A DNA stretch of 64,000 nucleotides from Acidobacteriota bacterium (GCA_039028635.1 JBCCHV010000006.1:1-64000); one strand, 5' to 3'. Shown: positions 16,783 to 42,180, counted from the first letter of the stretch. Made by a program: numbers and translations. Notes: generated by a model from the letters alone, not told the origin.

Positions 16783-17619
16783 ATGCTTCGTAAGCTCTCT
16801 TTGCCGCTCTTCGCCGTCGTCGTGCTCGCCATCGCGGCGACCACCGTGGCCGCTCCCCTCGACGTTCTGGTCTTCACCCGTACCGAAGGCTTCGCCCATC
16901 CCTCGATCGCCGACGGCGTCACCATGATCCAGCAGATCGCCAGCGAGGAAGGACACAGCGTCACGGTCACCGACCAGACCACCGTTTTCACCCCCGTGGG
17001 CCTCGGCGCCTTCGATGTCGTGGTGTGGCTTTCGACCACCGGCGATGTTCTCGATGCTCCCGAGCAGGCGGCCTTCGAGGGCTTCATCCAGAGCGGCGGC
17101 GGCTATGTCGGCATCCATGCCGCCGCCGATTGCGAGTACGGTTGGCCGTGGTACGGCGAGCTGCTCGGCAACGGCGCCTGGTTTCTCTCCCATCCGGCGA
17201 TTCAGACCGCCACCCTCGAGCTCGAGGCGCCGACCCACCCCGGGGCGGGCTTCACCGCCCCAACCACCTCCTTCGAGGACGAGTGGTACAACTTCCGCGC
17301 CAACCCGCGCTCCGTGGTGGAAGTCGTCCTGACCCTCGACGAAGACTCCTACAATCCCGGCAGCGGCGCGATGGGCGATGACCACCCGATCGCCTGGGCG
17401 CACGATTTCGATGGCGGCCGCGCCTTCTACACCGCCCTCGGGCATCGCTCCGAGACCTTCCAGGACAGTCGCTTCAAGGAGCAGATTCGCGGCGCCCTCG
17501 CCTGGGCCGCCGGCGAGCTCTTCCTCGACGGCTTCGAGGCCGGCAACACCAGCGCCTGGGACAGCACCGTCCAGCGACAGGGCAAAGCCGCCGCCGGGGC
17601 CCAACCCGGCGACGGCTAA
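16783..17619 (+). CDS. Secreted ThuA-fold protein with DGFE-type tail
   Basis: About 278 residues with a signal peptide ending near TTVAA, then a ThuA-like (glutamine-amidotransferase-like) domain: VLVFTRTEGFAHPSI, GGGYVGIHAAADC and GGRAFYTALGHRSETF are typical. ThuA-domain proteins have poorly known roles, often in sugar metabolism. Near the end is LFLDGFEAGNTSAWDSTV, matching the tails of three other secreted proteins in this window; here 15 further residues follow it. An upstream in-frame ATG exists at 16759, but GGAGG sits just before 16783, which also gives the better signal peptide. Expression may depend on the palindrome upstream. Confidence 0.87.
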   Translation: MLRKLSLPLFAVVVLAIAATTVAAPLDVLVFTRTEGFAHPSIADGVTMIQQIASEEGHSVTVTDQTTVFTPVGLGAFDVVVWLSTTGDVLDAPEQAAFEGFIQSGGGYVGIHAAADCEYGWPWYGELLGNGAWFLSHPAIQTATLELEAPTHPGAGFTAPTTSFEDEWYNFRANPRSVVEVVLTLDEDSYNPGSGAMGDDHPIAWAHDFDGGRAFYTALGHRSETFQDSRFKEQIRGALAWAAGELFLDGFEAGNTSAWDSTVQRQGKAAAGAQPGDG

Positions 17620-17629
17620 CGTACACCTC

Positions 17630-20600
17630 CTACGATCGCTGCCGCCGCAGCACCCGGACACCGACCGCCGCCAGCAGCAGGAAGGTGAGGAGCAGGCCCC
17701 ACTGGCCGAGGGTCGGGATATCGGCGATCAGACCGACCACCGCCTCGGCCTGGTTGTCGGCCGGCTCGGCATCGTCGCCGTTGTTGCCGTCGTCGGCGAT
17801 GAAGGCCTGGTTGCTGATGCTGTCTCCGGCCCCGCCGCCGATCACCTCGACCACGAAGAGGGCGCTGCCGGACTCACCGGCCGCCACCGTGCCGAGGTCG
17901 AGATCGCAGTCACTGCCGGCGGTCTCGTCCGGCAGGCAAACCCAGCCGGCGGTGCTGCTGGCGGCGACGAAGACCGTCAGGTCCGGCACCCTCTCGGTCA
18001 GGATCACGCCGGTCGCCTCGCGGCTGCCAACGTTCTCGTAGTCGAGGGTGTAAGTGATGAATTCACCGATCCGCACCGAGCCAAGATCGCTGGTCTTGGT
18101 CAGCCGGAGATCCGGCGCATCCACCACCACCCGGTCGCTGCAGTCGTTGTTGTCTTCGGCGAGCTCGGCGGCGACGTTCGCCGGATCGACCGCGCAGACA
18201 CCTCCGTCCGCCGGGTTTTCGAGGGCCCCCGCGGCGGTCGGCGTCGCCATCCCGCGCACGGCGACGTGGGCTCCTGGAGCCAACTCCACCGCGCCGCCGG
18301 TGGCGACACAGGTGAGCACCTGGGCACTCACCCCACAGACCAGGTTGGCGGCTCCGGTCACTCCTGTGATGGCGTCGATGGCGAAGGTACCGTAGGTCGC
18401 GCCGGACGGCAGATCGTCCCGCAAGAACACCTCACCGGAGGCGAAAACCGCCACTCCCGGCCCGTCATTGAGGACGTCCAGGGTCCACTCGAAAGGCACT
18501 CCCAAGCTGCCCATGCCAAGGTTGTCGTTGAGCTTCTCGACGATCAGATCCGGCCCCTGGGCCACCACCGTGTCGCCACAGCCGTTGTTGCCTTCGTCGG
18601 TCTCCGCCTCGACGCCATCGGGATCGACGGCGCAAACCTCGCCGGTGCGCGGATTGACCAACGAACCGATCGCCGTCGGGGTGACCACGACGGCCACCGT
18701 GAAGCTGCCGCCGTCGGCGAGATCGACGTTGCCACCGTCCGCCGTGCACTCCAGATCGCCGCTGGCGATGGCGCAGCTCACGGTGCCGCTGCCGGAGAGA
18801 CCGCTCGAGGCAGTCACCGCCGGCGTACCGTAGGTGACGTTGCCGGTCGGCAGGGCATCGAGGAGGATGCGAGACGCCGCCGGGAAGCTGGCGACGGCGC
18901 CGCCGTTGCTGACCGTGATCGACCAGTCGAAGGGCACCCCGACGCCGCCACTGCCGGAGGTGTCGTTGATCTTGCTCGAGGTCAAGTCCGGTGATGCCGC
19001 CACGACGACGCTGTCGGAGCAGGTGTTGTTGGTCTCGTCCTCTTCTTCCAGGGCACCGCCCGGGTCGACGGCGCAGGCACCGCCGGCGCGCGGATTGTCG
19101 AAGGTGCCGGCGCCGCTCGGATCGGCCGTCAACTCGACCGTGAAGGTGCCGCTGCCGGCGGCGATCACCACGTCTCCGCCGCTCGCCTGACACAACAGGT
19201 CGATGGAGCTTAGCGTGCAGTCGATGGTGCCGCTGCCGGAGATCCCGGCCTGGGCACCGACGGTCGCGCCGGAGTAGCTGATCGCGCCGCCCGGCAGGCT
19301 GTCGCCGAGAATCGCCTGACCGTCGAGGTAGGTGGCGTCGCCCGCACCGCCGTTGGTGACCGTCAGCGACCAGGTCCAGGTCGCCGCCTCCTCCGTCGCG
19401 CCACCGACATCGTTGCTCTTCACCACCGCCAGGTCCGGCAGGGCCACCACGTCGACCACATTGCCGCAGCCGTTGTTGCCTTCGGCGGTCTCGAGCTCAG
19501 CGTCATCCGGATCGACCGCACAGACGCCGCCGGAACGCGGATTGACGAAGCTGGCCTCGGCCTGCGGCGTGGCGTCGAAGCTCACCGTGAAGGTGCCGCC
19601 GACGGCGAAGTCGACCCCACCGCCGCTCGCCGTACAGGTGAGATCCGAGCCGGCGATGGCGCAGGCGATGGTGCCCGCTCCCGAGACCCCCGACTGGGCC
19701 GAAACCGCCGCCGTGCCGTAGGTCATGTCCGTATCCGGAAGCTGATCGAGCAGGATCCGGGCAGCGCTCGGGAAGCTCGCTGCAGCGCCGCCGTTGGTCA
19801 CCACCAGAGACCACTCGAAGGGCGCCCCGACGACGCCCGAGCCGGTCAGGTCGTTGCTCTTCACCACCGTCAGGTCCGGCGAGGCCGCGACATCGACCGA
19901 GTTCGAGCAGCCGTTGTTGCTTTCGTCCGCCTCGTCGATCACCGCCCCCGGGTCGACGGCACAGGTACCGCCGGAGCGCGGGTTGGCAAACGTTCCCGCC
20001 ATCGACGGATCGACCGAGAAGCTCACCGTGAAGCTGCCGGTGGTCGCCGCCAGCACGACATCACCGCCGCTGGCGCTGCAGGTCAGCACAGCGGTGGCGA
20101 TGGTGCAGGCGACGGTACCGCCACCGGAGACGCCGGTGACCGCACCCACCGACGCCGTGCCGTAGGCGAGATCGCTCGCCGGCAGCTCATCCGTGAGGAT
20201 GGTCTCGCCGGCGGCGAAGGTCGTCGCCACCGCCCCCTGATTGGCGACCGTCACCGACCAGGTCCAGGTCGCCGCCTCCTCCGTCGAGCCGGAGACGTCG
20301 TTGCTCTTGGTCGCCGTCAGATCAGGCAGCTCGAAGACCTCCACCGAATCCGAGCAGCCGTTGTTGCCCTCGGCGTTCTCGAGCTCGGCGTCGTCCGGAT
20401 CGACCGCACAGGTGCCGCCGGAACGCGGATTGTCGTAGGTCGCGGCGCTCGTCGCCGTGGCGTCGAAGGTCACCGTGAAGGTGCCACCGTCACCGAAGTC
20501 GACGTTGCCGCCGCTCGCCGTGCAGGTGAGCACCGAGGTGGCGATAGCGCAGGCGACGGTGCCACTGCCGGAGAGCCCCGACGTCGCCGAGACGGCGGCG

Positions 20601-23539
20601 GAACCATAGGTGATGTCCGTCGTCGGCAGCTCGTCGAGCAGGATGCGCGCACCGCTGGCGAAGCTCGCTACGCCGCCGCCGTTGCTGACCACCAGGCTCC
20701 ACTGGAAGGTCTCGTTGACGACGCCGGTGCCGCCGACATCGTTGCTCTTGGCAACGGTCAGATCCGGCGACGCCACCACCGCCACCGAATCGCTGCAGGC
20801 GTTGTTGGTTTCGTTGGCCTCGGTGATCAAGGCGGAAGGATCGATGGCGCAGGCGCCACCGGAACGCGGATTGTCGTAGGTCGCGGCCGCCGAAGGGTCG
20901 ACCGTCACGGTCACCGTGAAGGCGACCCCGCTGCCGAGGATGGCCGTACCGCCGCTCGCCGTGCAGGTGAGGTCGCCGCTGACGATGCCGCAGCTCACCG
21001 ATCCGGTGCCCGACAGCGCCGCCCCGGGGGTCACCACCGGGGTGCCGTAGGCCAGACCGGAAGCCGGCAGGTTGTCGCTCAGGATGAGCTCGCCGGCATC
21101 GAAGGTCGCCGTCCCGAGGCCGCCGTTGGCCACCTGCAGCGACCAGGTCCAGGTCGCCGCTTCTTCCGTCGCGCCGCCGACGTCGTTGCTCTTCACCACC
21201 GTCAGGTCCGGCAGCGGCGGCGGCACGCTCACCGAATCGGAGCAGGTGTTGTTGCTCTCGTCGATTTCGAAGGCCTGGTTGGTCGGGTCGGTGATGCAGT
21301 TGCCGCTGCTACGCGGGTTGTCGAAGGTGCCGAAGGTGGTCGGTGTCGCCGCGACCTCGACCGTGAAGAAGCCGTTGACGGCGATGATCGCGTTGCCGGC
21401 GTCGGGCACGCAGGACAGCACGTCCGAGGCCACCGAACAGTCGATGGCGGTGCCTCCGGCCGAGTAGGTGATACCGCTCTCGGAGGTGATCGACGGTGTC
21501 CCGTAGGTCATGCCGCTGTCCGGCAGGGTGTCGAGCAGCAAGAACCCACCGGTGCCGACGGTAGCCGCGGCGGTGCCCCCGTTGCGCACCGTGATCGACC
21601 AGGTGAACGGCGTCCCGACGCTACCGGTGCCGGAGGTGTCGTTGCTCTTGATCGCCGTCAGATCCGGCGAAGGCGTCACCATCACCGAGTTGCTGCAGGC
21701 GTTGTTGCCTTCGTCGCCCTCGCTGATCACCCCTCCCGGGTCGACGCTGCAAGCCCCCCCGGAGCGCGGGTTGTCGAAGGTGCCGAAGGTGGTCGGAGTG
21801 ACCGGCAAGGTCACCAGGAAGCTACCGCTGCCGGCGGCGAGGACCACAGTGCCGCCGCTGGCACTGCAGGTCAGGTCCGAGCCGATCACGCCGCAACTGA
21901 TGCTGCCGGTACCGCTGATGCCGACCTGCGAGCCCACCACCGGCGAGCCGTAGGTCAGACCACTGGCCGGCAAGTTGTCGCTCAGGATCGCATCACCGGC
22001 AGAGAAAGTCGCCGGCTGGGTGCCACCATTGGCCACCTGGAAGGTCCAATCCCAGTCGCCACCCTGGCCGACGGTGCCACCGACATCGTTGGTCTTGCCG
22101 ACGGTCAGATCCGGCCCCACGACGGCGGTGCCGACGACCACCGAGTTGGAGCACTGATTGTTGCTCTCATCGGACTCGGTCACGGTGTTGTTGCCGTCGA
22201 CCGTACAAGCCCCGCCGGAGCGCGGATTGTCGAAGGTGCCGGCCACCGAGGCGGTAGCCGCGAAGGTCACCGTGAAGGTGCCGTTGGGAGCGATGGTCAA
22301 ACCGCCTCCGGCGGTCGTGCAGGTCAAGAGCGCGGTGGTGATCGAGCACGAGATGGAAGCTCCGACATCGAAGGTGACGCCACTCACCGCGCCCACCGAT
22401 GGCGAGCCGTAGGTCATGCTGGCGTCCGGCAGGGCATCGAGCAGCAGAAACGCTGCCGAGGGAACGACGGCATCGACAGTCCCCTGATTGCGCACCGTGA
22501 TCGACCAGTTGAAGGGCGTGCCGACGAGGGCGCTCCCGCCCGCGTCGTTGGATTTCGTCGCCACCAGATCCGGCGACGGGTTGACCACCATCGAGTCGCT
22601 GCAGGAGTTGTTGGTCTCGTTGCCCTCGGTGATCGCGCCATCGGGATCGATCGCACAGACGCCGCCGCTGCGCGGGTTGTCGAAGGTGCCGGTCACGGTG
22701 GCGTCGACCCTGACGGAGACGGTGAAGCCACCGGTCGCCGCCGCCAGGTTGACGTTGCCTGCGGAGGCGATGCAAGTGAGCACCGAGGTCGCAACGGCGC
22801 AAGAGATCGTGCCGCTGCCGGTGATGTCGGTCTGGGAGCTCACCGAGACCATGCCGTAGGTGAGACCGCTGTCGGGCAGGCTGTCACGCAGGATGACCTC
22901 GCCGGAAGCGAAGTCGGCGGCCGCCGAGCCGCCGTTGGCGACCTGAAGGGACCAGTCCCAATCGACACCAAGCAGGACCGAGCCGAGGCGGTTGTTGCTC
23001 TTCACCACCGTCAAGTCCGGACCGACCGCTCCGGTGGTCACGGTCACCGAATCGGAACAAAGATTGTTGGTGTCGTCCGTTTCGGGGATGGCGTTGACCA
23101 GATCGGCTATGCAAATGCCGCTGGTGCGCGGGTTGTCGAAGGTGCCCGCCGTGGTCGGCGTCACCGGGATCGTCACCGTGAAGGATCCGCCGGCCGAGAT
23201 GTCGACATTGCCGGTGGCCGGCGTGCACTGCAGCACAAAGGCCGCCGAGATGGTGCAAGAGATGGCACTGCCGGTCACCCCGGATTGACTCACCGAAGGT
23301 GTGCCGTAGGTGAGGCCGGCATTGGGGAGGACGTCGGTCAGCATGAAGCCGCCGAAGCCGAAGGTGGCGGTGGCATCGCCGCCATTCGCCACCACGATGG
23401 ACCAGTTGAAGGGCGTGCCGACGGTGCCGTTGCCGGTGAGGTCGTTGCTCTTGGTGGCGGTGAGATCAGGCTGAGCCCAGAGCGGGGTGCCCAACATCGA
23501 GACCAACAACAGAAGCGCGAACGGAAAACGCTGCCGCAT
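17630..23539 (-). CDS. Giant secreted repeat protein with DUF11-like domain and IPTL-CTERM sorting signal
   Basis: A 1969-residue exported protein. The signal peptide is residues 1-23 (ends PLWAQ). Twelve tandem CARDB-like beta-sandwich repeats of about 148 residues follow. Each begins PDLTxxKSND, contains a WS.xVxNGG core and a FDNPRSGG turn, and ends NNxCSDSV, with four conserved cysteines that could form two disulfides. Most repeats alternate between two kinds (PFxWS and TWTWS/DWDW). A DUF11-like domain then carries TSDLGSVRIGEFITYTL, and the protein ends with IPTLGQWG, a hydrophobic helix and RRQR, the IPTL-CTERM sorting signal. ATG was chosen over an upstream in-frame start because GGGGAGG precedes it and the signal peptide begins there. 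Probably a surface adhesin or structural protein; that role is inferred from architecture. Confidence 0.93.
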   Translation of the reverse strand: MRQRFPFALLLLVSMLGTPLWAQPDLTATKSNDLTGNGTVGTPFNWSIVVANGGDATATFGFGGFMLTDVLPNAGLTYGTPSVSQSGVTGSAISCTISAAFVLQCTPATGNVDISAGGSFTVTIPVTPTTAGTFDNPRTSGICIADLVNAIPETDDTNNLCSDSVTVTTGAVGPDLTVVKSNNRLGSVLLGVDWDWSLQVANGGSAAADFASGEVILRDSLPDSGLTYGMVSVSSQTDITGSGTISCAVATSVLTCIASAGNVNLAAATGGFTVSVRVDATVTGTFDNPRSGGVCAIDPDGAITEGNETNNSCSDSMVVNPSPDLVATKSNDAGGSALVGTPFNWSITVRNQGTVDAVVPSAAFLLLDALPDASMTYGSPSVGAVSGVTFDVGASISCSITTALLTCTTAGGGLTIAPNGTFTVTFAATASVAGTFDNPRSGGACTVDGNNTVTESDESNNQCSNSVVVGTAVVGPDLTVGKTNDVGGTVGQGGDWDWTFQVANGGTQPATFSAGDAILSDNLPASGLTYGSPVVGSQVGISGTGSISCGVIGSDLTCSASGGTVVLAAGSGSFLVTLPVTPTTFGTFDNPRSGGACSVDPGGVISEGDEGNNACSNSVMVTPSPDLTAIKSNDTSGTGSVGTPFTWSITVRNGGTAAATVGTGGFLLLDTLPDSGMTYGTPSITSESGITYSAGGTAIDCSVASDVLSCVPDAGNAIIAVNGFFTVEVAATPTTFGTFDNPRSSGNCITDPTNQAFEIDESNNTCSDSVSVPPPLPDLTVVKSNDVGGATEEAATWTWSLQVANGGLGTATFDAGELILSDNLPASGLAYGTPVVTPGAALSGTGSVSCGIVSGDLTCTASGGTAILGSGVAFTVTVTVDPSAAATYDNPRSGGACAIDPSALITEANETNNACSDSVAVVASPDLTVAKSNDVGGTGVVNETFQWSLVVSNGGGVASFASGARILLDELPTTDITYGSAAVSATSGLSGSGTVACAIATSVLTCTASGGNVDFGDGGTFTVTFDATATSAATYDNPRSGGTCAVDPDDAELENAEGNNGCSDSVEVFELPDLTATKSNDVSGSTEEAATWTWSVTVANQGAVATTFAAGETILTDELPASDLAYGTASVGAVTGVSGGGTVACTIATAVLTCSASGGDVVLAATTGSFTVSFSVDPSMAGTFANPRSGGTCAVDPGAVIDEADESNNGCSNSVDVAASPDLTVVKSNDLTGSGVVGAPFEWSLVVTNGGAAASFPSAARILLDQLPDTDMTYGTAAVSAQSGVSGAGTIACAIAGSDLTCTASGGGVDFAVGGTFTVSFDATPQAEASFVNPRSGGVCAVDPDDAELETAEGNNGCGNVVDVVALPDLAVVKSNDVGGATEEAATWTWSLTVTNGGAGDATYLDGQAILGDSLPGGAISYSGATVGAQAGISGSGTIDCTLSSIDLLCQASGGDVVIAAGSGTFTVELTADPSGAGTFDNPRAGGACAVDPGGALEEEDETNNTCSDSVVVAASPDLTSSKINDTSGSGGVGVPFDWSITVSNGGAVASFPAASRILLDALPTGNVTYGTPAVTASSGLSGSGTVSCAIASGDLECTADGGNVDLADGGSFTVAVVVTPTAIGSLVNPRTGEVCAVDPDGVEAETDEGNNGCGDTVVAQGPDLIVEKLNDNLGMGSLGVPFEWTLDVLNDGPGVAVFASGEVFLRDDLPSGATYGTFAIDAITGVTGAANLVCGVSAQVLTCVATGGAVELAPGAHVAVRGMATPTAAGALENPADGGVCAVDPANVAAELAEDNNDCSDRVVVDAPDLRLTKTSDLGSVRIGEFITYTLDYENVGSREATGVILTERVPDLTVFVAASSTAGWVCLPDETAGSDCDLDLGTVAAGESGSALFVVEVIGGGAGDSISNQAFIADDGNNGDDAEPADNQAEAVVGLIADIPTLGQWGLLLTFLLLAAVGVRVLRRQRS
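18116..23470 (-). repeat. Twelve tandem coding repeats of about 445 bp
   Basis: Internal repeats of the IPTL-CTERM protein. Each unit encodes about 148 residues. Units 1-11 alternate in type, giving a higher-order unit of about 890 bp. Conserved blocks such as those coding for DNPRSGG recur with silent and replacement differences, so the array grew by duplication and has since diverged. Confidence 0.85.
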
Positions 23540-23910
23540 GACGGTTCCTCCCCAAATCCTGCCGAAATCAAAGGAAATAGCCGGTACTGGCCCCGAAAAA
23601 AACCTAGCACAGGGGCGCACCAGGAGCCTTCCGGGCTCGACCTGCGATTTCACCCCGCCGGGGGCTATCGGCCGGACCGCTAGCGGGAGCTGGGAGCCGA
23701 AGTGATGCGATCCGGTCAAGAATCGGCAAAAAGACGTCAAATCCGAATCGGCCGACTCCTTCGGCCCGCCCCGAGATCGTCACATTGGTGGCAGCACCGG
23801 ATGCCACCGCCTCCCCGGAAGGTGGGAGGCGGCGGTAATCCGACGATTGCGAAGTTGGAGAGTTGAGCGAGCGGCGCCAGAGCACTGGCCGCCCGCCATC
23901 CGACAAGTTC
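23540..23910. other. Intergenic region with one strong hairpin
   Basis: No convincing gene. It holds the leader of the IPTL-CTERM gene (GGGGAGG just upstream of its start) and a 9-bp perfect stem at 23807-23832 (CCGCCTCCC with GGGAGGCGG, 8-base loop). The stem lies about 80 bases after the stop of the next minus-strand gene. It lacks a T-run, so it is at most a weak terminator. I saw no clear promoter hexamers. Confidence 0.5.
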
Positions 23911-25200
23911 CTAGGGCACCACCGCCGACCAGGCGCTGACGTCTCCAGACTCGAAGCCATCGAAAAAGATCGGCAGCTCGACACGTCGTCCGAACAGATC
24001 GAGGCTGTTGATCGCCGTTCCCGTGTCGGTCTCCCAGACCGTGAAACCGCGGCCATCGGTCCCCACGATGGGCCGCGCCACCGCCTGGTCCCCGGCGACC
24101 TCTGGGCTCAGCCGCTCGACGGCGCCGCGCAGAATGCCCTCGGCGGTGACGTGGCGTCCGACGATGGTGAGCTCGCCGCTGTCGAGGAAGTCGTCGTGCC
24201 AGGCCACCAAGAAGTCACCGCTCGGGCCGCCGGCGGCGCCCGGCAGCTCCGCACTGCCCTGGCCGTCATCGATGCGCAGATCGGACGTCATCGCCGTGCC
24301 ATCGGCGGCGAACAGGCGCCCGACGACGGCCGAGGGCCCGGGGGTGGGCGGCAACTCTTCCCACACCACCAGGAAGCGGCCGTCCGGCTGCACTACCAGC
24401 GCCGGATCGAAGTGGATGCCAGCAGACGTCGCGTTGACCGCAATCTCGCCGCCTTGGAGGGCCCCGGAGGCATCGACCCGCCGTGCCACGATGCTGTCGG
24501 GACTGGAATCCTGGTCGTCGCTCTCCCACACCAGCACGAAATTGCCGGCGCCGTCGGAGGCGACGTCGATGTCCTCCTGGTCACCGGTCAAGGTGATGTT
24601 GACCAGGAACTGGTCGGCAACCGCCGTGGCGGTGCTGTCGAACAGCCGTGCGGCGACGTTCTCGGCCGGGTTGGCCACCGGGTTGGTCTCCCAAGCGACC
24701 AGGAACCCACCATTGAGGCCGGCCGCCACCACCGGATCGTTCTGATCGCCATCGGTCACCTGATTGACCAGAAACTCACCCGTCACCGGAGCGCCGGCGG
24801 TGTCGAACAAGCGTCCGTAGACTCCCCGCTGGCTGCCGTCCTGCTGGTCACTGTCCCAGACCACCACCAGCCGGCCATCGCTGAGAAAGGCGACGTCCGG
24901 ATCGTGCTGATCGTCGTCGGTCTCGACATTGACTCTCATCTGGTCGCCGAGGGCCACCCCATCGGCCCCGAATCGGCGCAGATAAACGTTGTCCGCCGAT
25001 CCATCCTGATCGGCGCTCTCCCACAACACCGCGAAGACGCCGTCGCTGCTGACGTCGATCGCCGCGAAGTCCTGATTGCCCGCGGTCACCTGGTTGATCG
25101 CCACCTGGCCTCCCTGCACCATCACTTGGCCCTGAGCGGGAACCACGGACACCACCAGCAAGAGCAGCAAAATCCTCACAACGCTCAAATCCCTCGACAT
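23911..25200 (-). CDS. Secreted repeat protein (propeller-like) with DGFE-type tail
   Basis: A 429-residue exported protein. The signal peptide ends near VVPAQGQ. Seven or so repeats of about 50 residues follow, with the pattern NQVTxGDQxxPxVAxxxxGxFxVxWES.DxDGS...V.xRxFDxxG. The alternating hydrophobic strands suggest a beta-propeller or stacked beta-sheets. No catalytic motif is visible. It ends with IFFDGFESGDVSAWSAVVP, the tail shared with other exported proteins here. The ribosome binding site AAAGGAG is well placed. It is transcribed in the same direction as the IPTL-CTERM gene but separated by 371 bases, so may be independent. Confidence 0.85.
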   Translation of the reverse strand: MSRDLSVVRILLLLLVVSVVPAQGQVMVQGGQVAINQVTAGNQDFAAIDVSSDGVFAVLWESADQDGSADNVYLRRFGADGVALGDQMRVNVETDDDQHDPDVAFLSDGRLVVVWDSDQQDGSQRGVYGRLFDTAGAPVTGEFLVNQVTDGDQNDPVVAAGLNGGFLVAWETNPVANPAENVAARLFDSTATAVADQFLVNITLTGDQEDIDVASDGAGNFVLVWESDDQDSSPDSIVARRVDASGALQGGEIAVNATSAGIHFDPALVVQPDGRFLVVWEELPPTPGPSAVVGRLFAADGTAMTSDLRIDDGQGSAELPGAAGGPSGDFLVAWHDDFLDSGELTIVGRHVTAEGILRGAVERLSPEVAGDQAVARPIVGTDGRGFTVWETDTGTAINSLDLFGRRVELPIFFDGFESGDVSAWSAVVP

Positions 25201-30090: not shown

Positions 30091-30497
30091 CAGGCTGCTG
30101 AAAAAGCCGCGTGGCGGCTTCTTCAGCGCCTGCTGTCTATTTCAGGGGCGCCCGGCCAGGGGGGCTAAAAGGCGCCCCCCTCAGGCCTACGCGGCCCGGC
30201 TACGCGCATGTCGCGCGCCTTCACCCCAATCCAGGGCGGCCCCGTCCTCGGCGCCCTCGGCGCCGCCTCGCCCGCTGGGCTCGGGGTCCCACGCGGGCCG
30301 GAAGTCCTCGAACCTGAACTTTTTCAGCGCTGCTAGCTGTTTTTTCCGAGAGGGGCTGCGCGCCCCTGACTGCGCGTCCCGCTCCGGCCCAAGAAGCGCG
30401 GTTCTTGGGCCTCCTCTCCCGTCGCGGCGGCTGAGCCGCCGCCGAGCCCTTCTGGGCTCGGTCGCAGGTTGCCGATGAGTTTTTCAGCAACCTGCTA
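30088..30497. mobile_element. Structured 410-bp repeat with terminal inverted repeats (MITE-like)
   Basis: Left end TAGCAGGCTGCTGAAAAA and right end TTTTTCAGCAACCTGCTA are inverted copies matching at 17 of 18 positions, and CTAG lies at both outer edges. A third related end, CTTTTTCAGCGCTGCTAG, occurs at 30319-30336, so the element may be two joined units. Inside is a chain of stems: 30089-30134 (about 20 bp with one bulge and one mismatch), 30158-30181, 30351-30367, 30386-30411 (10 bp), 30426-30440 and 30442-30461 (8 bp, tetraloop). No protein-coding frame with support. Reads as a non-autonomous repeat or a structured RNA-forming element. Confidence 0.65.
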
Positions 30498-30510
30498 GCA
30501 GGCTGCTGAA
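30483..30510. repeat. 28-bp near-palindrome at the right end of the structured repeat
   Basis: The arms TTCAGCAACCTGC and GCAGGCTGCTGAA meet at a central TA, with one mismatched pair. It is made of two head-to-head copies of the element end and lies 18 bases after the stop of the convergent protease gene, where it could act as that gene's 3' hairpin. There is no T-run in the protease direction. Confidence 0.55.
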
Positions 30511-30527
30511 GAGCCGCAGACGCGAGT

Positions 30528-31943
30528 TCAAGGACCGCCGACGGTCGCGTCCCAGCCGCTGGTGTCGCCGGTTTCGAAGCCGTTTTCGAAGATCGTCTCG
30601 ACGAAGGCCGGTAGGCAGGAGGCAACGCTGTCGAGATAGGCCCGCATGCGCTGCGGCGCCCGCTCGCTGCGCTCGCCGTAGAATCCCGCTCGCCCCAACC
30701 ACAGGCTGACGTTGCTGGTGCCGCCGGGCTGCAGTGAGCAGTAGCTCATGATGCCCCCACCATCGACCGGCATGCTGACTGGGCCGCTGTAGCAGCCGTC
30801 CTGGCTCCCCCAACAGCGATCGATCGGCGGATCGCCCGGCTGCGGACTGTCGTTGTAGCAGTGGGTGTGGGGAGACCCGAAGGTGTGGCCGAGCTCGTGG
30901 GAGAAGGTGAACAGATCGAGCACCGCCAGCGGGTTCGAAGGCTCCCACCGGCCGCTGATCTCGCCGGTCACCCCGTAGCCCATCACGGTGTCGCACAGGC
31001 TGCCGACGAAGGCGACACCGCCCCCCATCGCCTTGCCGGTGAGGAAGTGGACCAACGAGCGCTCGACCTCGCCACGGTTGGCGAGCCAGTAGTCCCGCAC
31101 CTCGAAGACCGCCGGCACGACGCTGGTGGCGGTCCAAGGATCGGAGCTCGTGCCGCCGCTGTAGAGGTAGAGATCGCTGATCTGGGGCACGGCGTCGATA
31201 TCGCGCAAGAAGATCGCCGAAACCGCCGCCACCAAATCCGCCACATAGGCGGAGGCGGCGCTCGCGGACCCCAGGCGGTCGAAGAACTCGGCATCGGTCT
31301 CGACGGCGAGATCCGCCGCCGTCGGCCGACCGGCTCCTCGACCCGAGATCGCATTGCCTGGGGCCGCCACCGTCGACACCGAGCTCGAGCCTCGCAAGGG
31401 CGCCGGCAGGGCGCTGTTGCCGCAGCTCCAATCGGCAGCGATCGGGCCGACCGCCGCCAGCTCGATGGCGGCCGCACCGCCTCGCGGCGTGGCCAGCAGG
31501 AAGAGCTGCTCCTGGGCCGACACCAAACCCCGCCATCGACCCTCGGCGTCGACCGCCAGGAAGGCGAGAGAGTCTTCCTCTCCGGCCACCCGCCCCTGGA
31601 AGTGGCGGCGCGCGGTTGGTTTGTGGAGGGTGCGCTCGCCACCGGAACCGATCTCCGTCACCCGCGCCCCCGGCTTCCAGACCTGCATGCGCTCGAGCTG
31701 CAACCGCACCGGCACCTCGCCGGCGAAGAGAGACAGCGCAGGGATCACGAGGGTAGAGCTCTCGAACACCTCGGTCAGACTGCGATCGAGCCGCCACGGC
31801 ACGGTAGCGCCGCGAGGCCCAGTGTCCGGCTGGGCTTGGGGCACCTGGGCTGGGGCGGGAGGGACAACAAGGGCCGTGAGGCTCACCGCCGCGGCGGCGA
31901 GAGCAGCGATCGGCGCGCCACCGGCGCCTCGACGAGTCGTCAT
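30528..31943 (-). CDS. Secreted reprolysin-like zinc metalloprotease with DGFE-type tail
   Basis: A 471-residue exported protease. The signal peptide ends near PPAPAQ (about residue 33). A prodomain-like region of about 175 residues follows. The catalytic domain (about 215-440) contains the extended zinc motif HELGHTFGSPH (349-359) and the Met-turn IMSYC (M399), so it is a metzincin of the reprolysin-like (M12) kind. Several cysteines near the active site (CYND, RCWGSQDGC) suggest disulfides. It ends IFENGFETGDTSGWDATVGGP, a tail shared with three other exported proteins here. The ribosome binding site AGGAGAGG precedes ATG. A role in extracellular protein breakdown is inferred. Confidence 0.92.
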   Translation of the reverse strand: MTTRRGAGGAPIAALAAAAVSLTALVVPPAPAQVPQAQPDTGPRGATVPWRLDRSLTEVFESSTLVIPALSLFAGEVPVRLQLERMQVWKPGARVTEIGSGGERTLHKPTARRHFQGRVAGEEDSLAFLAVDAEGRWRGLVSAQEQLFLLATPRGGAAAIELAAVGPIAADWSCGNSALPAPLRGSSSVSTVAAPGNAISGRGAGRPTAADLAVETDAEFFDRLGSASAASAYVADLVAAVSAIFLRDIDAVPQISDLYLYSGGTSSDPWTATSVVPAVFEVRDYWLANRGEVERSLVHFLTGKAMGGGVAFVGSLCDTVMGYGVTGEISGRWEPSNPLAVLDLFTFSHELGHTFGSPHTHCYNDSPQPGDPPIDRCWGSQDGCYSGPVSMPVDGGGIMSYCSLQPGGTSNVSLWLGRAGFYGERSERAPQRMRAYLDSVASCLPAFVETIFENGFETGDTSGWDATVGGP

Positions 31944-33239: not shown

Positions 33240-33794
33240 CTACGGAATCTTCTCCGAGAAAGTTCCAGATTGGCTCTGCCGCCGACCATAGCGCAGGTGC
33301 TGAACGCCGTTCGAGTAGCTCTTGCTGGCCTCGAGCAGAAGATCCTCGGAAGTCGCGATCGCCTCGAAGAGGGGCACCCCTCGGCCGAGCAACCGAGGCA
33401 TCAAAAAGAGCTCGTAGCGGTCGATGCGGCCGAGCCGTCGGAAGGAGGTGGCGAGGGCCGTGCCGCCGACCAGCCAGGCCCGGCGGTGGCCCCCTGCGGC
33501 AAGCTCCTCGAGAACCGGCCCGATGGCCCGCGCGGTCACCTCGACGCCGGCGACGTCACTTGCCGGCAGCCGGGACGAGAACACCACGCTAGGTTGTTCA
33601 TAGGGCCACGCTCCGAAGCCCAAGACCTGCTCATAGGTTCGGCTGCCCATCAACAGCACATCGATGCCGGCGATGAAGCGGCCGTAGCCGTAGTCTTCGT
33701 CGGGCCCCTGAAACGGGCTCAGCCAGTCGACGCCGCCATCGGCCGTCGCGATGAAGCCATCGACACTGGCTGCCACGTAGTAGACGACTTCCAC
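33240..33794 (-). CDS. RibD C-terminal domain / dihydrofolate-reductase-like protein
   Basis: A 184-residue cytosolic protein of the RibD_C reductase fold, usually NADPH-dependent. Family features: VYYVAASVDGFIATADGGVDWL at the start, VLLMGSRTYEQVL, VVFSSRLP, LVGGTALATSF and the late LFLMPRLLGRGVPLFE. The GTG at 33794, behind AAGGGAG, gives the normal N-terminus; longer in-frame extensions are not conserved in style. The substrate is unknown, because many members of this family act in neither riboflavin nor folate synthesis. Divergent from the SLC12 gene, leaving about 255 bases of shared upstream DNA. Confidence 0.87.
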   Translation of the reverse strand: MEVVYYVAASVDGFIATADGGVDWLSPFQGPDEDYGYGRFIAGIDVLLMGSRTYEQVLGFGAWPYEQPSVVFSSRLPASDVAGVEVTARAIGPVLEELAAGGHRRAWLVGGTALATSFRRLGRIDRYELFLMPRLLGRGVPLFEAIATSEDLLLEASKSYSNGVQHLRYGRRQSQSGTFSEKIP

Positions 33795-34049
33795 GGATCT
33801 CCCTTCGGAGTGCAGTTGTTCGACCCAGCCCGACCAAGGCTCGCGACCACCTCGGCCGAGAGCCGATTTCCGACACCAGCGGTCGCGAAAGGCTAAGATA
33901 GCGCGGTTGTCTCGATGGCGGGGTCCCTCGGGAGGGGCCGACCGGACCCTGCCAGGAATCGATGTGATGATTGTCGATCGTTCTGTTCCCATCCGCGCCG
34001 GACTTTTTGCGGGCGCACTCCCGGCCTCCCGTCTCTCCTTTCTCTAGTC

Positions 34050-36242: not shown

Positions 36243-36373
36243 TCGATCGAGCCACGACGGCAGCGATCACGATCGCGCCGCCAGCCTTCCGAGTCGCGCC
36301 CCGGGGCGAGCCGGCCGGCAGCCGATAGAATGCCGGCTCCCGTAGACCCGCACCCACACGAGGAGATCTCCCG

Positions 36374-38548
36374 ATGGTTCCGAGAATCGCTGCTACTGCC
36401 GCCATCACCTGCCTGGCGCTGTCGATCACCCTTCCCCTCGGCGCGCAAGACAGTCGTCGACTCGAGCTCGACGATGTCTTCCCGGCGGAGCGTCCTTCCC
36501 GCGGCGCGACCAGCATTACCTGGTCTCCGGACGGTCAGACGCTGGCCTTCGTCGAGTCCGACGAGAGCGGCGAAGCCCTCTGGCTGCTCGCCATGGCCGA
36601 TGGCCAGCGGCAGGCGGCGCTACGGCCCGGCTCCCTGGGCGAAGAGGAGGGGGCGAAGGAGCTCGATCTCGAGGCCTTCCACTGGTCCCCGGACAGCCAG
36701 AGCCTGCTCTTCGCGACCGAGGAAGACCTCTTCTGGTGGCAGGTCGGCAGCGCTTCGCCGCGGCGCCTGACGACGCCGGACGGTGCAGTCGAAGATCCCA
36801 AGATCTCACCGAACGGCCAGCACGTCGGTTTCGTGCACGACTTCGACCTCTACGTCTTGCCGGTCGCGGCCGGCGCCGAGGCCAAGCGCCTGACCTTCGA
36901 CGGACGCGAAAACGTCATTCTCAACGGCACCACCGATTGGGTCTACTGGGAAGAGATCTGGGGGCGCGCAGGGACTGGATTCTGGTGGGGGCCGGAGAGT
37001 CGTCGCGTCGCCTTCTACCGCTTCGATGAGACCGATGTGCCGACCTACACCCTGCTCGACTCTCAACCGCACTATCCCGAGGTCACGCTGCAGAAGTATC
37101 CCAAGGCCGGCGAGACCAATCCCCGGGTGCGGGTCGGCGTGGTCGACGTCGACAGCGGTGAGACCAGCTGGATGCAAACCGGCGAGGACGATCGCGAATA
37201 CCTGGCGCGGATCTACTGGCGGCCCGACGGCAAGAGCCTCACCATCCGCAAGATGAACCGCGAGCAGAACCATTTTCAGACCCTCGCCTGCGCTCCCGGC
37301 GAAGGCACCTGCTCAGAGCTCCACAGCGAGCGCTGGCCGACCTGGATCAACATCGAGAACGACTTCTTCTTTCTCGCCGACGGCGGCTTCCTGCGCGGCT
37401 CCGAGGCAAGCGGCCGACGCCACCTCTATCGCCACGACGCCTCCGGCCGTCAGGTGGCGACACTGACCTCCGGCGAATGGGCCGTGGCCGGCGTCGAAAC
37501 GGTCGACGAAGAGCGCGGCATCGCCGTCGTCTCGGCCTACGGTGAGGGCCCCGTCGGCGCGCAGGAGCGGCGGGTTCTGGCCGTCGCCCTCGATGGCAGC
37601 GGCATCACCGAGCTGACCAGCGGCGGCGGTTGGCACAGCGCCCAGGTGGCGCCCTCCGGGGGCCATTGGGTGCACTCCCACAGCACCGCCAACCGGCCGC
37701 AGCAGCGACGCGTCTTGAGTCCCGACGGCCAGGTGGTGGCCGACCTTTCGGCCGCCGAGATCCCGCTCGACGCCTCGACCCTGCCAAGCTGGGAGTTCCT
37801 CACCATCCCGGGTCCCGAGGGCTCGCGCCTGCCGGCCCGCATGATCCGTCCGCCGGGCACCGACGACACCACCCCGAGGCCGGTGATCATGTACCACTAT
37901 GGTGGCCCGGCGTCGCAGGTGGTGCGCAACGGCTGGGGGCGGCGCGACCTGTGGCACAAGATGATGGCGAGCCGCGGCTTCGTCGTCTTCAGCGTCGACA
38001 ACCAGGCGTCGGTCTTCTTCGGCAAGGCCGGTGAGGATCGAGTGCATCGCAATTTCGGGCCGACCAACCTGGCGGCCCAGCTCGCCGCCGTCGACTACCT
38101 GCGAGAGCAACCCTGGGTGGATGGCGATCGCATCGGCCTGTGGGGCTGGTCCGGTGGCGGCAGCAACACCCTCTACTGCCTGTTCAACAGCCCTGGAACC
38201 TGGAAGGCCGGTGTGGCCGGGGCTCCGGTGACGCGCTGGGACCTCTACGACACCATCTGGACCGAGCGCTACATGGATCACCCGCAGGACAACGGCGACG
38301 GCTACGAGCAGTCCTCACCGGTGACCCATGCCGGCAACCTGGAGGACACCCTGTTGGTGATCCACGGCGTCGCCGACGACAACGTCCACCCGCAGAACAC
38401 GCTGATCTTGAGCCAGGCCCTGATCGCCGCCGACAAGGCCTTCGAACAAGGCATCTACCCGGAGCAGAAGCACGGCTTCCGGGGCCAAGCGGCGCGCCAT
38501 TTCTACGCCCGCATGACGCAATTCTTCGAGCGCGAGCTGGCGGAGTAG
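36374..38548 (+). CDS. S9 family prolyl peptidase, DPP-IV type
   Basis: A 724-residue exported serine peptidase. The signal peptide is about residues 1-25 (ends LPLGAQ). An eight-bladed-type beta-propeller domain spans about 40-440. It carries DWVYWEEIW (Glu193/Glu194), equivalent to the double-Glu motif that holds the substrate N-terminus in dipeptidyl peptidases. The alpha/beta-hydrolase domain follows, with Ser593 in GWSGGG, Asp668 in DDNVH and His700 in KHGFRG. It should release N-terminal dipeptides, probably in the periplasm, complementing the secreted proteases. GAGGAG precedes ATG. An upstream inverted repeat GAGCCGGC/GCCGGCTC (36308-36339) encloses a -10-like TAGAAT. Confidence 0.94.
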   Translation: MVPRIAATAAITCLALSITLPLGAQDSRRLELDDVFPAERPSRGATSITWSPDGQTLAFVESDESGEALWLLAMADGQRQAALRPGSLGEEEGAKELDLEAFHWSPDSQSLLFATEEDLFWWQVGSASPRRLTTPDGAVEDPKISPNGQHVGFVHDFDLYVLPVAAGAEAKRLTFDGRENVILNGTTDWVYWEEIWGRAGTGFWWGPESRRVAFYRFDETDVPTYTLLDSQPHYPEVTLQKYPKAGETNPRVRVGVVDVDSGETSWMQTGEDDREYLARIYWRPDGKSLTIRKMNREQNHFQTLACAPGEGTCSELHSERWPTWINIENDFFFLADGGFLRGSEASGRRHLYRHDASGRQVATLTSGEWAVAGVETVDEERGIAVVSAYGEGPVGAQERRVLAVALDGSGITELTSGGGWHSAQVAPSGGHWVHSHSTANRPQQRRVLSPDGQVVADLSAAEIPLDASTLPSWEFLTIPGPEGSRLPARMIRPPGTDDTTPRPVIMYHYGGPASQVVRNGWGRRDLWHKMMASRGFVVFSVDNQASVFFGKAGEDRVHRNFGPTNLAAQLAAVDYLREQPWVDGDRIGLWGWSGGGSNTLYCLFNSPGTWKAGVAGAPVTRWDLYDTIWTERYMDHPQDNGDGYEQSSPVTHAGNLEDTLLVIHGVADDNVHPQNTLILSQALIAADKAFEQGIYPEQKHGFRGQAARHFYARMTQFFERELAE

Positions 38549-38560
38549 GCCCACGAGAAA

Positions 38561-38587
38561 GGGCGGCCCGGCACACCCGGACCGCCC
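38561..38587 (+). terminator. Terminator-like hairpin after the S9 peptidase gene
   Basis: Arms GGGCGGCCCGG and CCGGACCGCCC pair with one internal mismatch around a 5-base loop, 12 bases after the stop. No T-run follows, so termination efficiency is uncertain. Confidence 0.4.
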
Positions 38588-38745
38588 GCGGTCTTCAGGC
38601 ATCGCCCTCGTCGGCTGACGCGCCGAAGGCCCGATCTCCCAGGGCGCGGAGCCTTCCGAAGAAGACCTTGCCTTGCTTAGGGGCAGCCGGCAGCGATTCG
38701 TTGCACCGCAGATCCGGCGAGCCCCTGGACTGCTACGATCCGATC

Positions 38746-39702
38746 GTGAAGGCCGTCCTCTACCGCAGCTACGGCGAGGCGAAGGTTCTCGAGATCGGCA
38801 CCGTCGAGGCGCCGTTACCGCGACGGACCGAAGTTCTCGTGCGGGTGGCGGCCGCCGCCCTCAACCCCAAGGACATCCTGACCCGCAAGGGCAAGTTCAA
38901 GCTCTTCACCGGACGTCGATTCCCGATGGTTCCGGGCCTCGACATCGCCGGTGAGGTCATCGCCAAGGGCTCGGCGGTAGCCACCTACGACATCGGCCAG
39001 CGGGTTCACGGCATGCTCAACGGCTGGCGCGGCGGGGGCTGTGCCGAGCAAGCCGTGGCCGGCGAGTCGGAGCTCGCTCCCATACCGACCGAAATGAGCG
39101 TTGTTCAGGCCGCGGCCCTGCCCTTGGCGGGTATGACCGCACTGCAGGCCCTGCGCGACCTTTTGAGGGTGAAGGAAGGCGAGAGGGTCTGTATCAACGG
39201 CGCTTCGGGAGGAGTCGGAACCCTCGCGGTGCAGATCGCCAAACTCCTGGGTGCCCAGGTCGTTGCCGTCTGTAGCGGTCGCAACGCCGCGCTGGTGGCG
39301 GGACTCGGGGCCGACGAAGTCGTCGACTACACGCACACCGATGTCACCCGCTCCGGCCCCTACGATGCCTTTTTCGACGTCTTCGGCAATTGCCCACCGG
39401 CCCGGGTTTCGCGAGCCTTGCCTTCCGGCCGCCACTGCACGACCGTTCCCTCGCCCGGAGCCATCCTGCGCGAGCTCCAGGGGCGGCTCCTCGGGCGCCC
39501 CCGGCGCATGGTGATCGTGCGCGGCAACGGCGCCGACCTGCGCCAGCTCGACCAGTGGTACGCCGCCCGTGGGCTCGACATCGTCGTCGACCGCGTGCTG
39601 CCGTTTTCTCAGGCCGCCGAAGCCCACCGTTACCTCGAAACCAAGCGCGCCCGCGGCAAGGTGGTGCTGGTTCCGGATCCGCTGTTCGACCACCAGGCCT
39701 GA
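38746..39702 (+). CDS. Medium-chain dehydrogenase/reductase, quinone-oxidoreductase-like
   Basis: A 318-residue NAD(P)-dependent oxidoreductase of the MDR superfamily. The N-terminal GroES-like part reads MKAVLYRSYGEAKVLE (GTG start) with LNPKDILTRKG, FPMVPGLDIAGEV and DIGQRVHG. The nucleotide-binding motif is NGASGGVGTLAVQIAK (151-166), and the end, AAEAHRYLETKRARGKVVL, is normal. No structural zinc Cys cluster is seen, so it belongs to the zinc-independent quinone oxidoreductase group. The GTG lacks a clear ribosome binding site. The frame is open far upstream but there only mirrors the peptidase gene in another frame. Substrate unknown. Confidence 0.87.
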   Translation: MKAVLYRSYGEAKVLEIGTVEAPLPRRTEVLVRVAAAALNPKDILTRKGKFKLFTGRRFPMVPGLDIAGEVIAKGSAVATYDIGQRVHGMLNGWRGGGCAEQAVAGESELAPIPTEMSVVQAAALPLAGMTALQALRDLLRVKEGERVCINGASGGVGTLAVQIAKLLGAQVVAVCSGRNAALVAGLGADEVVDYTHTDVTRSGPYDAFFDVFGNCPPARVSRALPSGRHCTTVPSPGAILRELQGRLLGRPRRMVIVRGNGADLRQLDQWYAARGLDIVVDRVLPFSQAAEAHRYLETKRARGKVVLVPDPLFDHQA

Positions 39703-39711
39703 ACCCAACGA

Positions 39712-39752
39712 CCGATCGGGCCGAAGCTCGAAAAGAGCTCCAACCCGATCGG
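39712..39752. terminator. Two-tier hairpin between convergent genes
   Basis: The outer arms CCGATCGGG and CCCGATCGG are perfect; inside, AGCTC and GAGCT pair around GAAAA. It starts 10 bases after the MDR stop and ends 29 bases before the stop of the minus-strand protease gene. Symmetry suggests use in both directions, but neither side has a T-run. Confidence 0.55.
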
Positions 39753-39780
39753 CCTTGAGGGGAAGCCGCCTTTCCCAGAC

Positions 39781-42180
39781 TCAGGGCACCTGGTCCGTCC
39801 AGGAAGACGCGTCACCGGACTCGAAGCCATCGGCGAAGATGTCCTTCGACTGGACATCCATGGTCAGCCGGACCTCGTCGATGTCCTGCCCGGCGAGACC
39901 CGGAAAGATGATGCTCAATCGGCCGTCGAAGGGATTCGAGAAGGACGACGTGATGTCGATAGGTCCTCCAAAGAGCCCGGTGCCGTCGTTGAAGAACTCG
40001 ACCATCGCCGAGCTCACCAGCACCTCTTCGTCGCTGTCCAGGGTGTCGTCGATCCCGATCTCGATGCATGCGGCATCGAGAGGCGTTCCGCTGTCGGGAT
40101 CCTCGAAGCCGTCCGGGAAGAGGTCCTCGCCGTTGTCCGACTTGGCGGTGATTTCGCCCGTAAAGCCGTCCGAGTCGTTGGCGTCGGTCTCGAACTCGAA
40201 GACGAAGGGCTGAGTACCGTTGGTGTAAGGATCGAGCAGCTCGTCGAGACCGTCGAACAAGACTTCGTTGTCCCCGGTTCCGGAAGTATGAGGCGACGAG
40301 CAGTTTCCGTTCTCCCCCAGCTTCAGCAAAAAGTCGAAAATGTCCTCATCGAAGCCTTGAGCGCCATCGAGCACGTCGGTACCGATCGGCAAACCGACTC
40401 CAGTGAGGTTGTCCATGCCCGGGCTCTCGATATCCGCCGAACCTTCCTTCACCCGGTTCTCGGCCCCCTCGCTGTTGAGAGACGGCATGAGCTCCTTGAG
40501 CAGAGCCGCCAAGCCGGCGACATGGGGCGCCGAGGCCGACGAGCCGAAGAACGGGTTGAATCCCGGGGTTGCGGTGGATACTCCGTCGGCAGCAGAGACG
40601 TCCGGCTTCTGGCGCACCTCCGGCATCGGAGCTCCGAGCGGCTCATCGCCCGGATCGACGGCGGTCGCGACGGCGGGAGCCACCGGCGTGCCATCGGCTT
40701 CGAAGAAAATCCGGCGCGGGCCATCGGAGCTGAAGGTCTGAACCGGATTGGCAGGGCCGCCGGTGAAGACACCACCACCAGCGGTGGCGACGTTGACGGC
40801 TCCCACTGCCATCGCCCCTTCGGCCGCCGGGTGGCCGAAGACCTGACCATCGGTACCGCTGGCCAGGCGGCCGCGATGGGTGTTGACGTGGATGAAGCGG
40901 CTGACGCCGTCGAACAGCACCACCACCACCCGGTTGCCGGTGTCGTCATCGGCGATGCTGTCGACTGCCTCGACCGGATTCTGAGTGCCGTTCTGAGTGT
41001 TGGTCGAAGCATCGAGCACGTTGGCCAGGGCAGCATCGAGAATGAACAGGTCGTAGTCGTTGCTGGCGGCGCCGAAGGGGTCGGCCCACTGCAGGGTCAC
41101 CAGGCTCGGCGAATCGAAGGTGATCTCGTTGTTGTTGGTGCCGCCGCCGAAATCGTGGGCCGACTGGCCATTGCCAGCGAGCGGACCGGGCAGTGCGATG
41201 CCCGAGTAGTCGCCTTCCCAGACGCCGGCCGTGCCGGAGTCGAGATTGCCGGAGTTGCCGGCCGACGAGTAGTAGAAGACACCCGCCGCCGCCACCTCGT
41301 TCACCGCCTGGGCGATGATGCCGTCCTGGAACACCGGCTCCGTGAGGTAGAGCACATCGTCGACGATGACGTTGCAGCCGGCGGCGGCGAGGTCGAGAAT
41401 GTTCTGCGCCATCTGGGCCTGTCCGCCGGCGCCGGTGGCGAAGAAGAGATCCGCCCCCGGCGCCATGTCGTGGACGATCTCGAGCAAGGCCGTGCCTTCG
41501 CTGGTGCCGGGATTGCCGCTCTGGCCCGGCAGCACCGTGACACCCGCCGGAAGATCTCCGGAACCCTGCAGCGATACCAGCGCATCGACGCTGTCGGACA
41601 TGGCGCCCACCCGCACGCCACTGCCGTCGACCCCGAAGTCGAGGCGGGCCGTGTCGGTGCCGTGGGCGACATCGCCCTCGGTGGTGTTGATCATCTGGGT
41701 GATCATCACGTCCGCTGGCCGGACCGAGCGCACCGCGGGCATCCCGGCGAGGGCCTCCAAAGCTTCCAGCGGGAGATCGGCCCGCACCGCCTCGAAGCGC
41801 GGATGCGAGCTCAGCACGCGGCCGCCGAGCTCGGCGATGCGCGACAGAAGCTGCGGCGAGACCTGCGCCGCCAGGTCGACCCGGACCGTGCCGTCGGCCT
41901 GCACCCGGGCGCCCATGCGGAGCTGCGGCAAGCGGCCGCGCAGGCCCTCCCCGCGGCGCTGCCGCAGCTCCATCAGCAGTCGCGAATCGATTTTGTGCTG
42001 CGCCGCCGTACGACTGCGCTTGAGGGTCAATATCTGGTCGATCTGGCGCAGCGCCTCGACCTTGAGCTCTTGCGCCATCAGCGGCAGAGCCGGCGCGGCG
42101 AGGAGCAGAATCATGAGCAGGTTCAACCAGCGCATCGGCTTGCGGAGCCGGTCGCGGGAGCTTGAATGGTTCGAGCGCAT
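39781..42180 (-). CDS. Secreted S8-type serine protease with Glu at the usual His position and a DGFE-type tail
   Basis: A 799-residue exported protein of subtilase fold. The signal peptide is about residues 1-37 (LLAAPALPLMAQ). A prodomain of about 130 residues precedes the core. The core shows the Asp motif VRVGAMSDSVD (D196), then GTSEGTALLEIVHDMAPGA. The canonical HGTHVAG His is here Glu228, though the following APGADLFF is normal. The oxyanion motif is SSAGNSG (N309) and the Ser motif FGSSASAPHVAGLAALL (S548). A C-terminal beta-rich part ends IFADGFESGDASSWTDQVP. An Asp-Glu-Ser triad, reminiscent of sedolisins, is possible. ATG at 42180 is preceded by AAGGAG. It is divergent from a winged-helix regulator. 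Confidence 0.88.
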   Translation of the reverse strand: MRSNHSSSRDRLRKPMRWLNLLMILLLAAPALPLMAQELKVEALRQIDQILTLKRSRTAAQHKIDSRLLMELRQRRGEGLRGRLPQLRMGARVQADGTVRVDLAAQVSPQLLSRIAELGGRVLSSHPRFEAVRADLPLEALEALAGMPAVRSVRPADVMITQMINTTEGDVAHGTDTARLDFGVDGSGVRVGAMSDSVDALVSLQGSGDLPAGVTVLPGQSGNPGTSEGTALLEIVHDMAPGADLFFATGAGGQAQMAQNILDLAAAGCNVIVDDVLYLTEPVFQDGIIAQAVNEVAAAGVFYYSSAGNSGNLDSGTAGVWEGDYSGIALPGPLAGNGQSAHDFGGGTNNNEITFDSPSLVTLQWADPFGAASNDYDLFILDAALANVLDASTNTQNGTQNPVEAVDSIADDDTGNRVVVVLFDGVSRFIHVNTHRGRLASGTDGQVFGHPAAEGAMAVGAVNVATAGGGVFTGGPANPVQTFSSDGPRRIFFEADGTPVAPAVATAVDPGDEPLGAPMPEVRQKPDVSAADGVSTATPGFNPFFGSSASAPHVAGLAALLKELMPSLNSEGAENRVKEGSADIESPGMDNLTGVGLPIGTDVLDGAQGFDEDIFDFLLKLGENGNCSSPHTSGTGDNEVLFDGLDELLDPYTNGTQPFVFEFETDANDSDGFTGEITAKSDNGEDLFPDGFEDPDSGTPLDAACIEIGIDDTLDSDEEVLVSSAMVEFFNDGTGLFGGPIDITSSFSNPFDGRLSIIFPGLAGQDIDEVRLTMDVQSKDIFADGFESGDASSWTDQVP

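Follow-up and report, generated by a model that had tools for sequence, protein, structure and literature searches.

A short C-terminal tag of secreted Acidobacteriota and Xanthomonadales proteins as the putative missing first strand of a separate jelly-roll adaptor

The window, a stretch of 64,000 nucleotides from the genome of an Acidobacteriota bacterium, encodes four secreted proteins, each of which carries a short tail of the DGFE-x-G type at or close to its C-terminus (Table 1). That the four tails lie on proteins with nothing else in common had been claimed in the first-pass annotation, and is confirmed by their positions in the sequence and by a Pfam search of the four carriers, in which no domain was common to them. 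In the ThuA protein, 30 residues separate the tag Asp from the stop. The start codon of the S8 subtilase was picked by its signal peptide, and its reading frame is open to 42333. This protease has a second, internal copy of the motif, DLFPDGFEDPDSG, ~94 residues before the C-terminal tag (about 40113 of the window, minus strand). Just 3' of the stop in several tag genes there is a palindromic repeat (AGCAGCCTGCTAGCAGG / CAGGCTGCTGAAAAA), which is found at about 30495-30527 of the window and after tag genes in L014, L017, L029 and L043, and which resembles a REP element or terminator of this genome.

Table 1. Tag carriers and tags in the window, and the catcher gene of the same genome (positions are those of the window except for the catcher)
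Feature	Position	Strand	Basis or remark
ThuA-domain secreted protein with tag	16759..17619	+	Pfam ThuA 3.9e-66; non-tagged homologs end at the tag border
C-terminal tag of ThuA protein	17518..17616	+	LFLDGFEAGNTSAWDSTV plus 15-residue extension
Propeller-like secreted protein with tag	23911..25200	-	ORF; Pfam: nothing above cut-off
C-terminal tag of propeller-like protein	23914..23970	-	IFFDGFESGDVSAWSAVVP, ends at stop
Reprolysin-like (M12) zinc metalloprotease with tag	30528..31943	-	Pfam Reprolysin_5 4.3e-16
C-terminal tag of reprolysin-like metalloprotease	30531..30593	-	IFENGFETGDTSGWDATVGGP, ends at stop
S8 subtilase with tag	39781..42180	-	Pfam Peptidase_S8 2.7e-9
C-terminal tag of S8 protease	39784..39840	-	IFADGFESGDASSWTDQVP, ends at stop
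Catcher gene, outside the window	G000:C61:3290-3931	+	catcher-model match, read as L299:2291-2929

The tag recurs throughout the window's genome (G000; 6.28 Mb in 117 contigs). The back-translated DGFE-x-G pattern, GAYGGNTTYGARNSNGG, has 85 matches there against 3 for the reversed pattern, so the recurrence is not a matter of chance. Tail positions read from the 1.47 Mb retrieved around these matches, with C-terminal copies counted by eye, place about 78 copies at the C-termini of unrelated secreted proteins, and the Asp lies exactly 16 residues before the stop in 63 of them. D, G, F, E and W do not vary across 57 aligned tails, in which Glu and Trp are spaced by 6 residues and the end is WSATVP-like. 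The carriers belong, by Pfam, to the beta-helix, lactonase, M28, GSDH, S8, DUF1501, Spond_N and many other families. Since the Ser codons of the tag are of both the TCN and the AGY type and the DNA 3' of the stops is not conserved, selection acts on the level of the protein. Spread of the tag by mobile DNA was rejected on the same two observations.

The first-pass annotation had proposed to test the tails for enrichment on proteins with signal peptides. By a crude rule of our own, a signal peptide was called in 56 of 71 tailed proteins and in 409 of 992 others (p 6e-10), an enrichment on the tailed proteins. Among the 15 tailed proteins with no called signal, some have a clear one by inspection, and several are cut at a contig end or have a mis-called start. 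Mid-protein copies, which had been named as counting against a sorting signal, do exist at four places (L012:8771, L066:9160, L051:834 and L040:9444); about 78 are C-terminal. One of the four directly follows a signal peptide, another is in the middle part of a metallopeptidase, a third belongs to an RHS-like protein, and the last precedes a long C-terminal stretch that is unrelated, and could possibly reflect a lost stop codon.

The tag does not resemble the usual C-terminal sorting signals. Ending in WSATVP, WS or GFE directly before the stop, tags have neither a C-terminal hydrophobic helix nor a basic cluster, and are thus unlike PEP-CTERM and IPTL-CTERM, as had been noted before. No LPXTG-like motif with a helix, as used by sortases, is present in the 61 listed tails. 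The C-terminal domain of the T9SS is a folded one of ~80 residues with a curated model, and no T9SS model is among the 25 most often matched of the 88 NCBIfam families matched by 65 tailed proteins. Searched alone against Pfam and NCBIfam, the tags had no match even at E 10; the first-pass annotation, too, could name no described system that uses them.

Tags are spread patchily over other genomes. Genomes of the same class have from 0 to 154 matches to the DGFE-x-G pattern each, and near 0 to 3 to the controls. Families f1, f2, f5, f7, f8 and f9 and parts of f3, f4 and f13 are rich in tags, and genus g4 of f4 and families f10, f14 and f18 are empty. The position and length of the tag are strict in f1; in f7, many tags extend 0 to 5 residues past the Trp, and the length after the Trp varies widely. 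Outside the phylum, a Lysobacteraceae MAG has a ThuA homolog with a related end. In its relatives, here called Xanthomonadales, the form F-x-[DN]-GFE-stop is found 0 to 56 times per genome (controls 0 to 1), and nearly all examples that were read are true protein ends. In Xanthomonadales genomes with 1-4 tags, a conserved neighbour gene was also looked for, and the tag genes had none in common. ThuA homologs from other bacteria end precisely at the point where the tag would start, so that the tag is an added module.

Where the module comes from is suggested by genomes of family f3 with few tags, in which the motif opens a C-terminal domain of ~190 residues that is not in Pfam. A tag HMM scored up to 40.7 bits, in register, on the N-termini of the whole domains, against 4.2 at most for shuffles; as the whole-domain set was partly picked by a loose motif rule, the score speaks for register and not for independent discovery. 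The Glu-to-Trp spacing of the tags is kept in 21 of 22 whole domains. The AF2 model of one whole domain, built with 71 sequences, has a pLDDT of 97.1 and a pTM of 0.92 (pLDDT 55 with 5 sequences only) and predicts a concanavalin-like jelly roll, in which the motif is strand 1 and the next loop. Its best structural matches are PL20 glucuronan lyase (2zzj, Z 18.9) and Cip1 (3zyp, Z 17.6), in alignments of 181-193 residues that start at model residue 1 to 3 and reach the C-terminus, and X122 domains are also close in fold (Z 16-19 for the Cip1/X122/PL20 group). Nothing significant was found in a PDB sequence search with the domain profile, and Foldseek against viral proteins gave general concanavalin-like matches only. 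Sequence comparison and the predicted model together show the tag to be strand 1, with the loop next to it, of a jelly-roll domain of ~200 residues that is whole in some relatives. The position of the tag, its secreted carriers, its lack of a helix or basic end and of a Pfam or NCBIfam model all lend good support to the original idea of a C-terminal sorting or attachment tag; that the tag is an isolated signal does not hold, as it is one strand of a Cip1-like domain. Whole-domain copies (IFADGFETGDTSAW...), with a second partial motif (IFSDGFEPFDFAS) in front, were also seen on two adjacent secreted proteins (L242 and L264) of a Xanthomonadales genome with one GFE-stop tag (G171).

The remainder of the domain, we then find, is encoded as a protein of its own. 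The domain without its motif, run against the class, matched whole domains and also, in tag-rich genomes, small secreted proteins in which strand 2 comes immediately after the signal peptide. We call these proteins catchers; a catcher model was built from Acidobacteriota catchers only. The window's genome has one, of 213 residues (~190 when mature), whose signal ends in VPASA and is followed by NSLNVNAAAALSG..., and whose end is the last strand of the domain. The mature N-terminus of the catcher begins where the tag stops. In about 29 tag-rich genomes of the class, catchers were read out and seen to have no motif. None of the catchers and whole domains matched an NCBIfam model, save for one match over the SLH part of L228.

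Some catchers carry further modules. Dockerin-like repeats are found on catchers of Xanthomonadales and of G105, with a best Pfam Dockerin_1 value of 1.5e-8 (L253, L260 and L236 above cut-off, L244 and L256 below), and they are on the catchers and not on the cargo. SLH repeats are found on catchers of families f6 and f9 (L228, L225 and L241; best 7.8e-17). These three SLH-bearing catchers have Cys residues close to the domain N-terminus and recurring ones in the SLH repeats, which seems unusual for SLH proteins. No anchor domain is present on the catcher of the window's genome or on many others.

The first-pass annotation had proposed to look for a gene whose presence follows the number of tailed proteins, and the catcher is one that co-occurs with tags. 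Taking genomes with 10 or more pattern matches as tag-rich, a match to the catcher model was present in 39 of the 44 tag-rich and 17 of the 104 tag-poor genomes of the class, a count over 148 genomes that includes whole-domain (cis) copies, for which the absence of the motif was read in part of the matched genomes, and of which the Fisher value (5e-17) overstates independence because the genomes are related. The same Acidobacteriota-built model was positive in 15 of 17 tag-rich and 4 of 17 tagless Xanthomonadales (p 0.0004, to be read with the same reserve), nearly always with one match per genome. The association extends to genera. In f4, genus g4 has neither tags nor catcher and g21, g27 and g28 have both; in f13, both are present in g43, g44, g47 and part of g52 and both are absent from g45, g46, g49 and g51, the exceptions being g48 (G103), tag-rich with no match, and g50 (G105), tag-poor with a match. 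No convincing catcher was found in the tag-rich class genomes G024, G035, G081, G093 and G103 or the tag-rich Xanthomonadales G161 and G169, perhaps because of incomplete assemblies or too narrow a model. Tagless genomes with catchers are G078, G170, G188, G195 and G201. The secretin GspD was considered as a tracking gene and dropped: its profile matches in all 148 genomes with no correlation to tags. Within f4, 2-3 secretins, with weaker GspD scores, are found in the tagless genus g4 and 4-6 in the tagged genera, and g4 may have lost a type II-like secretin along with its tags.

The strongest argument for physical complementation, in our view, comes from how the two phyla divide the domain in sequence. 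In Acidobacteriota, the tag runs past the Trp and the catcher lacks it. In Xanthomonadales, the tag ends at GFE and the mature N-terminus of the catcher provides Cys-x4-Trp (e.g. ACAISAWSS); this piece follows GFE in the whole domain and is therefore just what a tag stopping at GFE does not contain. A Trp lies within the first 14 mature residues of 14 of 15 Xanthomonadales catchers compared with 1 of 36 Acidobacteriota catchers, and the one exception on either side seems to come from a misplaced signal cut. Whole domains usually have 8 to 10 residues between the Trp and strand 2; in f1, the tag contributes 5 and the catcher about 2 to 3, in a comparison of tag and catcher lengths that covers part of the families. 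By the matched Trp positions and spacing, the domain is thus divided at a different point in each of the two phyla, and in each the pieces sum to the domain.

The related structures also suggest how the pieces could be held together. In Cip1, calcium is bound by Glu7 and the Asp5 backbone, both in the strand 1-2 loop, together with Asp206 of the last strand and a third loop (PMC3764139), and X122 domains have calcium in the same site (PMC10916295). The Asp matching Asp206 is invariant in all 71 sequences of the domain alignment. Ligands of the Cip1/PL20 type, assigned here by sequence position, are thus present on both partners, with the Glu invariant in the tags and the last-strand Asp in the catcher domain. 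A structural calcium probably bridges the Glu of GFE and adjacent backbone of the tag with the last-strand Asp of the catcher. An isopeptide bond is unlikely, since no Lys is invariant or nearly so in 12 aligned catchers.

Sequence and model show that the tag corresponds to strand 1, that the catcher corresponds to the domain without strand 1, that the two co-occur, and that their breaks are complementary; we infer that they bind, that calcium takes part and that anchoring can result. We put the probability at roughly three in four that tag and catcher form a natural docking system for secreted proteins, one that works by completing a domain with strand 1 supplied in trans. Strand 1 and the calcium loop of a Cip1-like jelly roll would have been detached as a C-terminal tag, and the catcher would be made apart and secreted, with a signal peptide, strand 2 onward and, in some lineages, dockerin or SLH repeats. 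After export of both, the tag of any carrier could slot into the catcher and complete the fold non-covalently, bridged by calcium. Dozens of different enzymes could dock in this way on one adaptor and be anchored to the surface or matrix, or be carried outward; such a split domain would not need cleavage of the tag. As dockerin and SLH repeats are found on catchers, the sequences suggest that an adaptor bearing them fixes its cargo to a structure of the cell surface or matrix. Since the catcher in the window's lineage has no anchor module, the outcome there could equally be assisted secretion or cell-free complexes. The wider proposition seems likely to us as well, if slightly less so: a sorting system of two phyla, in which dozens to about 150 proteins per genome carry a tag of 7-20 residues and complete an adaptor, probably non-covalently and with the aid of calcium, and in which the dockerin or SLH repeats set the destination of the cargo.

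The same complementation could serve another end. If the catcher were a secretion pilot or folding partner, the fold would be completed in the periplasm and the pair then exported by, for example, type II secretion, with anchoring a secondary matter limited to the dockerin and SLH lineages. The many catchers with no anchor, that of the window's genome included, and the lower secretin number of genus g4 fit this proposal, but the tagless families f10, f14 and f18 are rich in secretins, so that secretins do not track tags, and the dockerin and SLH repeats indicate attachment. We regard it as possible and clearly the less probable use of the catcher.

That complementation takes place at all would be denied if the tag were, as first proposed, a linear signal for a sorting enzyme or outer-membrane machine, with a catcher that shares its ancestry and is merely co-inherited. 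The strict C-terminal position and length of the tag in f1 and the many-to-one distribution, as in CTERM systems, could be read in this way. Such a signal would leave unexplained why catchers lack exactly the piece that the tag supplies and why the break point shifts jointly in both partners between the phyla, and the variable length past the Trp in f7 suits a break in a loop more than an enzyme site; we consider it unlikely. It is more improbable still, to a degree that makes it hard to credit, that the tags are functionless remnants of whole C-terminal jelly rolls shortened by stop codons. Whole domains with the same motif do occur in relatives, and one protein of the window's genome has two degenerate copies. 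Against decay are the five positions invariant in 57 unrelated proteins, the up to 154 copies per genome, the dedicated catcher alongside the tags, and the tagless homologs that end cleanly at the tag border.

We would like to point out that docking by a strand supplied in trans, if true, would explain the destination of a large secreted proteome in the little-studied Acidobacteriota and in Xanthomonadales, and one annotation rule would mark dozens of proteins per genome as cargo. It would also offer an evolved, many-to-one tag/catcher pair usable in protein engineering. As the split differs between the two phyla, short peptides and one small protein would suffice for a direct test of the partnership. 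The system appears to be undescribed so far: neither piece has a model in Pfam or NCBIfam, and no paper on the tag or the catcher was found in the open-access literature, and a description outside that scope is possible.

Several known systems are alike in part. PEP-CTERM/exosortase, GlyGly-CTERM/rhombosortase (PMC3237569) and MYXO-CTERM/myxosortase (PMC11980579) also put a short tag at the C-terminus of dozens of unrelated secreted proteins, with a single partner in each genome and a patchy distribution. They differ in that the tag described here has no transmembrane helix, basic end or protease, and that its partner would be a secreted beta-sandwich completed by the tag. The principle would be that of donor-strand complementation in chaperone-usher pili, where an incomplete beta-sandwich is completed by a strand from another protein; here, the fold is a jelly roll and not the Ig-fold of pilins, the tag is C-terminal, and one catcher would serve many unrelated cargoes. 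SpyTag/SpyCatcher and other engineered split domains likewise derive tag and catcher from one beta-sandwich split near a terminal strand, whereas the present pair is natural and genome-wide, has no conserved Lys in the catcher and is probably bridged by calcium. Like cohesin-dockerin, it would give many enzymes a common C-terminal module for one partner, and some catchers bear dockerins; here, the dockerin is on the adaptor, and the cargo has only 7-20 residues. Cip1, X122 and PL20 share the fold, the N-terminal Asp-Phe-Glu...Trp calcium loop and the C-terminal Asp with no match at the level of sequence, and are single chains, whereas the first strand is here found on another protein.
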